A stretch of 42,989 nt of DNA from the IMG/VR virus record IMGVR_UViG_3300008113_000104, positions 1 to 42,989 of that record. One strand, written 5' to 3'. How positions within the stretch are numbered: the stretch's first letter is position 1; each line of letters opens with the position of its first letter. This stretch comes from a virus. A program made the position numbers and the translations under genes. This document shows, in pieces, positions 2,900 to 31,195 of the stretch. Below the pieces are notes generated by a model. It ran no database searches and was not told where the DNA came from. It was given only the letters and a program-made list of their open reading frames with translations.

Positions 2900-2948
2900 A
2901 GTGACCCCTCTGTTTGAGCATCGTTGATAGGCTTGAGGGGTGTTATTT

Positions 2949-4601: not shown

Positions 4602-4741
4602 AAACAGGTCACCATGCACGCCACCAATTCTTTGATTGGAAATTGGAAACCAAGCGGAGAAAGAATTCCCCATCCGCACCACTTGCTTTTAGGAAGCAAG
4701 AAACCCGAGGGGTCGTAAAACCCATCCCGACCAGGGCACAT
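4598..4741 (-). CDS. Possible tiny gene ahead of cpeT
   Basis: A 47-residue frame (start MCPGRDGFYDPSGF) ends in an ATGA overlap with the chosen cpeT start. It has no Shine-Dalgarno, and its start codon lies in the repeat element at 4731-4759. The overlap favours a real gene; the composition (three Cys, many Pro and Gly) is unlike a normal domain. Kept as tentative. Confidence 0.3.
   Translation of the reverse strand: MCPGRDGFYDPSGFLLPKSKWCGWGILSPLGFQFPIKELVACMVTCL
4682..4700. other. Hairpin between cpeT and the repeat pair
   Basis: A perfect 7-bp stem (cttgctt / aagcaag) with a 5-base loop. No T-run follows on either strand. It may be a processing signal in the tRNA-cpeT transcript. Confidence 0.4.
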
Positions 4742-30684: not shown

Positions 30685-30692
30685 AATAAATA
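30685..30692 (+). promoter_or_regulatory. Late promoter box AATAAATA before the aptamer
   Basis: With T4 late spacing, transcription would start near 30698, one base before the CGTTC that begins the glutamine-aptamer-like RNA. Confidence 0.55.
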
Positions 30693-30698
30693 CAAGTA

Positions 30699-30743
30699 CG
30701 TTCATCTGCTATAATGCAGACGGAAGTAAGCCGACTCGGAACG
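30699..30743 (+). ncRNA. Glutamine-aptamer-like RNA (glnA / Downstream-peptide class), 5' copy
   Basis: CGTTCA (P1 5' strand), a perfect P2 hairpin (TCTGC TATAAT GCAGA), the conserved core CGGAAGTAAG, a short CCGACT segment and GGAACG (P1 3' strand). The order matches the glnA RNA family: P1, P2, CGGAAGUAAG, P3, GAAGGAACG. The GAA bulge before GGAACG that belongs to the loop-E motif is missing here, but is present in the second 3' half at 30910-30918. The known motif binds glutamine in cyanobacteria; the Downstream-peptide class precedes small peptide genes. Confidence 0.7.
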
Positions 30744-30755
30744 GATCGTTCATCT

Positions 30756-30911
30756 ATGGAAGCACTGTTCTTAACGTGTTTACAAGCAAACTTTCTTATT
30801 AGTAGAGTATTAACTCACCCAGAGTTGAGTCATCAACAACGTAATGATATTGTCTGGGAGATTAAACAAGTTACAAAGAAAGGTTGTTTCATAGACGCAA
30901 AAGCCGACTGA
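30756..30911 (+). CDS. Small protein between the two riboswitch halves, 51 aa
   Basis: Starts MEALFLTCLQANFLISRV, continues with HPELSHQQRNDIVWEIKQV and ends FIDAKAD. Its TGA is the first part of the GACTGAAGG element. No Shine-Dalgarno is evident; an ATG at 30714 lies inside the P2 loop region and is unlikely. It looks like a cyanophage small protein, and its last codons are made from the second copy of the aptamer sequence. Confidence 0.6.
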   Translation: MEALFLTCLQANFLISRVLTHPELSHQQRNDIVWEIKQVTKKGCFIDAKAD

Positions 30912-30921
30912 AGGAACGCTC
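30899..30921 (+). ncRNA. Second 3' half of the glutamine-aptamer-like RNA
   Basis: AAGCCGACT repeated from the first copy, followed by GAAGGAACGCTC, the full glnA-type 3' element including the GAA missing from copy 1. The 5' half needed here (CGTTCA, P2, CGGAAGTAAG) is degenerate (GTTTCATAGACGCAA). It lies 29 bases before the small-peptide gene. Confidence 0.6.
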
Positions 30922-30950
30922 TTTAGCCTCAAAATTAAGGAGAAAACCTA

Positions 30951-31109
30951 ATGTCACAAGCAACCTATAGAGGGTGCAAGTATAATACTGACACCCCTAA
31001 AGAAGAATATCGTAAGTGGTATTCGCAAACACATGCACCAGCACATGCAAATAACACCTATCGTGGTGTTGCCTATCGTCCTTGTAAAAACTCGGAGGTA
31101 GCAAAGTGA
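30951..31109 (+). CDS. Small YRG-motif peptide (DUF4278-like) behind the riboswitch
   Basis: A 52-residue peptide starting MSQATYRGCKYNTDT, with a second YRGVAYRPC near the end. The YRG(V/C)xY pattern twice in a small peptide is typical of DUF4278-type cyanobacterial peptides as I recall. AAGGAG lies 8 bases before the ATG. In cyanobacteria related RNAs regulate glutamine-synthetase inactivating factors or small peptides, so a nitrogen-status role in infection is a reasonable hypothesis. Confidence 0.75.
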   Translation: MSQATYRGCKYNTDTPKEEYRKWYSQTHAPAHANNTYRGVAYRPCKNSEVAK

Positions 31110-31195
31110 AAAAAATTAATATTCTTCAACTCATTAAAGAGCAAAAGCAAAAAGAAGAACGTCGTAAACAGGCACAACTTCTGTTAAAAGGATAA
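31106..31195 (+). CDS. Tiny basic peptide, 29 aa
   Basis: GTG start overlapping the stop of the YRG gene, with GGAGG before it. KKINILQLIKEQKQKEERRK is one basic helix. Its end overlaps the convergent structural gene by 12 bases. Probably translated with the YRG peptide; function unknown. Confidence 0.5.
   Translation: MKKINILQLIKEQKQKEERRKQAQLLLKG

Follow-up and report, generated by a model that had tools for sequence, protein, structure and literature searches.

A glutamine riboswitch-like RNA of cyanophages with a probable nested two-aptamer fold and a protein gene in a hairpin loop

Glutamine riboswitches of the glnA class raise the expression of DUF4278-type genes upon glutamine binding (PMC6316151). 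In the glutamine aptamer, G22/G23 become ordered when the ligand binds (PMC5393176), and a one-pair pseudoknot in the junction was supported by covariation and confirmed by crystal structure (PMC12510878). Tandem glutamine riboswitches, in which two adjacent glnA-like units share one leader, have been described (Weinberg 2010, PMC2864571; PMC9481103). A second class, the glutamine-II or Downstream-peptide RNA (RF01704), is likewise a glutamine sensor found before small genes in marine cyanobacteria.

The DNA analyzed here (hereafter the window) consists of 42,989 bases from an IMG/VR virus record, and its closest similarity was to T4-like cyanophages. Only one Rfam glutamine-riboswitch match was found in the window, at 30697-30747 (RF01739, 35.9 bits against a gathering score of 35). 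The first-pass annotation had reported a glnA-type 5' strand, P2 and core at 30699-30743 (site 1), and this was borne out by both the sequence (P2 TCTGC/GCAGA, core CGGAAGTA) and the covariance search, in which site 1 exceeded the cut-off by a small margin while some relatives scored 33-34 bits. The 3' element of site 2 was located as AAGCCGACT-GAAGGAACG at 30901-30918; as annotated, AAGCCGACT was carried by both sites, and AGCCGACT occurred twice, at 30729-30736 and 30902-30909. The 5' half of site 2 had been described as decayed. It was instead present as CGTTC-A-TCTATG at 30747-30758, after a three-base linker following site 1, and was kept apart from the 3' half by a 51-codon gene. In relatives with a short P2b, site 2 itself scored 37-40 bits with RF01739. 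The Downstream-peptide model, which had also been suggested, gave 18.1 bits against a gathering cut-off of 33, and membership of RF01704 was rejected. Two other structured RNAs were detected elsewhere in the window, an abiF RNA match among tRNA genes (2904-2940, minus strand, RF03085, 50.7 bits), similar to one carried by S-CREM1 (PMC9964418), and a wcaG RNA (4610-4708, minus strand, RF01761, 87.6 bits). The features assigned to the locus, with predicted pairings, were as follows.

30699-30703 (+): 5' strand of the outer P1, CGTTC, pairing with 30914-30918
30705-30720 (+): P2a hairpin, TCTGC-TATAAT-GCAGA, all 5 pairs of which covary in relatives
30721-30728 (+): J2/3 core CGGAAGTA; G30723 makes the long-range pair with C30919, and AGTA is the 5' strand of loop E
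30729-30736 (+): 5' strand of the shared P3, AGCCGACT, assigned by covariation
30739-30751 (+): inner P1' hairpin, GAACG-GAT-CGTTC; G30744 pairs with C30898
30753-30761 (+): 5' strand of P2b, TCTATGGAA, holding the start codon of the enclosed gene (30756-30758)
30756-30911 (+): enclosed 51-codon gene inside the P2b loop, phrog_504 family, two cysteines
30887-30895 (+): 3' strand of P2b, TTTCATAGA, overlapping the F-I-D codons of the enclosed protein
30896-30901 (+): inner J2/3, CGCAAA
30902-30909 (+): 3' strand of the shared P3, AGCCGACT, assigned by covariation
30909-30911 (+): stop codon TGA of the enclosed gene, within P3/loop E
30910-30913 (+): GAAG, the 3' strand of loop E and junction
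30914-30918 (+): 3' strand of the outer P1, GAACG
30919-30942 (+): proposed expression platform, in which CTCTTTAG (30919-30926) can pair with TTAAGGAG (30935-30942)
30951-31109 (+): YRG/DUF4278-like gene, 52 aa, the proposed regulated gene
31106-31195 (+): 29-aa ORF, probably cotranscribed with the YRG gene, whose end it overlaps

Relatives were collected by scanning IMG/VR with a short pattern and then with patterns forcing variation in P3, giving at least 308 usable loci, at least 216 of them distinct; most were recovered by patterns that fix P1, so that locus frequencies are not population estimates. Both segments were conserved in the related cyanophages. IMG/VR and phage records together yielded at least 308 related loci that share the two-part layout; this is far more than chance would give, and the sequence feature is confirmed as real. 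At the matching place, S-PM2 and S-CREM1 had two short glnA-like units whose halves are not separated by a gene, and in DSL-LC03, S-SRM01, DSL-LC02 and P-SSM3 the second unit contained a gene of 50-57 codons. By comparison with these relatives, the 5' half of site 2 in the window is not decayed, and the gene of the window lies between the two P2 strands of the second unit. A pattern of the same shape matched nine times in a search of 84,980 bacterial and archaeal genomes. The sole cyanobacterial place among the nine was on a Prochlorococcus single-cell contig of 189,106 bases, the length also of an IMG/VR virus record among the loci. With nine places found, one of them cyanobacterial, the two-site form belongs to cyanophages. 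The IMG/VR loci L153-L272 included many canonical single glnA aptamers located before diverse small genes, some of them not of the YRG type.

As the first-pass annotation had noted, site 1 lacks the GAA of loop E. The AGUA strand was present only in site 1 and the GAA strand only in site 2, and the glnA loop E motif AGUA/GAA was obtained only by combining the two. A P3 shared by both sites is formed between the eight bases 3' of AGUA in site 1 and the eight bases 5' of GAA in site 2. Among the 216 distinct loci listed, six of the eight P3 pairs were at least 95% standard, with exchanges between loci of the types A-U/G-C/C-G, C-G/U-A and U-A/G-C/A-U. Replacements of the whole helix also kept the pairing, for example AAACGAC/GUUGUUU and AGACAACG/CGUUGCCU. 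The two other pairs were mostly A.C (78% and 69%); they are positions 3 and 6 of P3 (30731/30907 and 30734/30904 in the window) and occupy symmetric places in the helix.

In canonical single phage aptamers, S, the third base of CG[S]AAG, has its partner directly 3' of P1, the pair being G-C in 84, C-G in 21 and G-T in 2 of the matches listed. This long-range pair of the glnA class was found across the nested sites. The base after CG in site 1 (S1) pairs with the base following GAACG of site 2 in all of the 216 distinct loci listed, as C-G in 134 and G-C in 82. A further nested pair, N-N', was T-A in 90, G-C in 68 and A-T in 45 of the same loci. Formal covariation counts were made with 49 gene-bearing sequences, in which N-N' was standard in 48 and of four types. 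The covariation score of the pairs found only in the nested fold was 0.352 in this set, compared with 0.135 for shuffled alignments and at most 0.107 for slid versions. On the gene tree S1 changed only 6 times and N 18 times; in a sign test no supported change pair contradicted the nested model, the pairs being too few for significance.

Inside P3, P2b follows the hairpin GAACG-GAU-CGUUC; the first base of the hairpin loop is paired to the C in CGCAA. Comparison of the relatives thus shows a predicted outer aptamer, made of P1, P2a, P3 and a loop E split between the sites, which encloses an inner junction. The interior of P3 is, as read from the aligned loci, a second aptamer-like junction turned inside-out (P1' and P2b) and joined to the outer aptamer through P3. 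A nested fold with a gene in its loop is well supported by these comparisons. One reading offered by the first-pass annotation, that the 5' half of site 1 pairs with the 3' half of site 2, is favored by the S1 pairs and the shared P3. Its corollary that the gene is a giant P3 insert stands insofar as P3 encloses the gene; the insert, however, is itself structured, with the hairpin GAACG-GAT-CGTTC and a covarying P2 (TCTATGGAA/TTTCATAGA). The other reading offered there, a duplicated aptamer with a gene between its halves, is not the architecture indicated by the covarying nested pairs, although duplication may be its origin.

The gene in the P2b loop was placed with precision. All 158 gene-sized inserts listed had an ORF with ATG 3-7 nt into P2b, and TGA or TAA fell at one fixed core position inside P3/loop E in 144. 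A stem of at least 4 bp closed 154 of these 158 inserts, although a stem had not been required. Double changes in P2b were seen in 17, 23 and 20 of the 49 sequences at pairs 3, 4 and 5, respectively; with both sides of P2b changing this often, there is covariation between the leader upstream of the gene and codons close to the end of the gene. The median pN/pS of the enclosed genes was 0.12, and differences at third codon positions numbered 5,399 compared with 2,857 and 1,225 at the other two, indicating purifying selection. No Shine-Dalgarno sequence is evident before the enclosed gene, and its translation is deduced from this selection. Exactly two cysteines were present in 135 of 136 distinct enclosed proteins listed. 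The protein of the window matched the phrog_504 profile (E 7.6e-06, residues 4-49), annotated in the profile database as a family without assigned function. A structure model built from 14 relatives predicted a two-helix hairpin (mean pLDDT 85), and a fold search with this model gave no match at E <= 0.001.

Genes were also found in the P2a loop in 52 of the 248 distinct loci listed, where they belong to other small protein families. The P2a type (L046, L091, L022 and about 49 others) often has a signal-peptide-like start and is closed by TCCTAT/ATAGGA or similar. The isolates P-SSM3 and P-SSM4 had genes in both loops, and P-HM1 had two annotated genes at matching places with a weaker P2a stem of 3 pairs. 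Neither loop held a gene in 68 of the 248 loci. Since these loci keep the RNA, the gene is not needed for it. This, together with the several protein families hosted by P2a and P2b, could mean that the P2 loop simply tolerates inserts, in the manner of group I introns with ORFs in their loops, and that the enclosed gene is compactly stored and has no regulatory role. However, the start codon in or at the P2b helix and the nearly fixed stop codon appear over-precise for such cargo, and the last codons of the enclosed gene consist of aptamer sequence. We regard a role as mere cargo as possible but rather doubtful.

The strands of P1 and P1' were invariant in the collected loci, and hardly any P1 variants turned up in scans made for them. 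Because these strands never vary they cannot separate a nested from a tandem arrangement, and P1 covariation was dropped as a test of topology. The four strands (CGTTC twice and GAACG twice) can pair either way, which would allow a bistable RNA in which nested and tandem folds both form through interchangeable P1 strands and glutamine shifts the balance. Predicted energies without further pairs were -18.3 to -28.9 kcal/mol for the nested and -11.3 to -21.4 kcal/mol for the tandem fold, and upon free refolding the tandem energy could equal or slightly beat the nested one. These predicted energies do not oppose the nested fold; their closeness is also what a bistable RNA would show. Nevertheless, covariation was found only in nested-specific pairs and in no pair unique to the tandem fold, and we consider such bistability improbable.

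Less probable still is a true tandem of two independent glnA aptamers, the second with a gene in its P2 loop, exerting pseudo-cooperative control. In its favor, the two halves receive separate Rfam scores, glutamine riboswitches often occur in tandem (157 doublets, PMC9481103), and phage tandems with two intact loop E motifs do exist (L183, L214, L245, L269 and L272). In the loci studied here, however, each half lacks one loop E strand, and the shared P3 covaries between the sites. The partner of S1 expected in a tandem was standard in 134 of the 216 distinct loci listed and failed in 82; in the 49 gene-bearing sequences the S pair was standard in 100% when nested compared with 67.3% in tandem. 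The N pairs failed within each single site. Independent folding of the two aptamers was rejected on these tandem-specific pairs. At L176 (672-947), a true tandem was observed in which both aptamers have an intact loop E and the second carries a phrog_504-like gene in its P2 loop; this aptamer-loop gene is either an independent case or an ancestral one. It is hardly credible that site 2 is a defunct remnant and that the gene came to lie between the halves accidentally. Only the appearance of the window, where a 125-nt loop obscures the 5' half of site 2, suggests this, and the reading was rejected because hundreds of loci conserve both sites and show compensatory changes.

The nested RNA is followed by a YRG/YRT-type ORF in 227 of the 248 distinct loci listed, in agreement with the YRG-motif peptide annotated downstream of it in the window. 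The downstream protein of the window scored 21.9 bits with DUF4278, below the cut-off of 25.3. The ribosome-binding site of the YRG gene, TTAAGGAG, can pair with CTCTTTAG directly 3' of P1, and C30919 is common to the first base of this platform helix and the long-range pair of the aptamer. A helix of this type beginning within 4 nt of the aptamer was found in 41-51% of the relatives listed compared with 21% of shuffled sequences, about twofold. The expression-platform helix is modestly supported by this excess and is plausible rather than established. Of the 241 usable relatives listed, 141 had a sigma-70-like -10 hexamer in the 22 nt preceding the RNA, mostly at a distance of 7-10 nt; no such match was present in the same 22 nt of the window.

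We consider it probable that the locus is a cyanophage glnA (type-1) glutamine riboswitch, nested head-to-head and with a protein gene in a hairpin loop, and propose the following mechanism for it. By analogy with other glnA RNAs, the outer aptamer would bind L-glutamine, and binding would order G30723 and its pair with C30919. This would open the helix CUCUUUAG/UUAAGGAG that otherwise hides the ribosome-binding site, and the YRG (DUF4278-like) gene would be turned on. The folded RNA would lock the start codon of the enclosed gene in P2b, and a ribosome on this gene would have to unfold P2b and P3 and would halt on the aptamer core at P3/loop E. As the start codon lies in P2b and the stop codon in P3/loop E, translation of the gene and folding of the sensor should be mutually exclusive. 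Low glutamine would then favor the enclosed protein and high glutamine the YRG protein, and every round of translation would reset the sensor. This regulatory logic, drawn from the anatomy of the locus, is a good proposal. A stronger version can be offered only tentatively: that the two glutamine sites sharing P3 act together and that translation of the enclosed gene is a partner in the switch, with the ribosome melting and resetting the aptamer, glutamine closing the start codon, and phage proteins being traded according to the nitrogen state of the host.

If the nested fold is correct, what homology searches report as a tandem or single glutamine riboswitch is an interlocked fold of its own, which is widespread among cyanophages and nearly missing from the bacterial genomes searched. 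An aptamer loop could then house a whole conserved gene, and the locus would be a natural, testable case of ribosome passage in direct competition with ligand sensing, suggesting that viruses control the nitrogen status of abundant marine phototrophs. In the literature searched, whose coverage of the glnA class was incomplete so that absence is not proof, no earlier account of the nested fold was found. The 'glnA' RNA of S-CREM1 was reported as one 99-nt RF01739 match of 44.0 bits (PMC9964418); this match spans both sites of the gene-less relative, and the report assigned the family name only and described no nested structure.

Compared with glnA RNAs (RF01739), the RNA of the window has the same P1, P2, J2/3 CGSAAGUA, loop E AGUA/GAA and long-range pair between S and the base after P1, and it lies upstream of a putative DUF4278-like gene. 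It differs in that two sites build loop E and P3, P3 encloses a second junction, and a gene lies in P2b. The RNA probably works like the glnA class and belongs there by score, in a form that we did not find described. Whereas the units of tandem glutamine riboswitches fold separately, those of the window interlock, and some published glutamine doublets may be of the nested form. Group I introns and HEARO RNAs also carry a protein gene in a peripheral loop of a structured RNA. They share the loop-lodged gene with the RNA of the window and differ from it as RNAs of mobile elements, not ligand-sensing leaders. The metE B12 riboswitch of Mycobacterium tuberculosis likewise has a translated short ORF inside its aptamer that affects the downstream gene (PMC11260477). 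Mutation of the start codon of this internal ORF raised downstream gene expression more than tenfold; the ORF, uMetE2, runs from +123 to +170 in the metE leader and encodes a peptide for which no role was shown (PMC11260477). In contrast, the enlarged hairpin loop of the RNA of the window houses a gene whose protein family, about 50-66 aa long, is conserved and under purifying selection. By analogy, the metE B12 aptamer would be the nearest tested precedent for a contest between translation and sensing.
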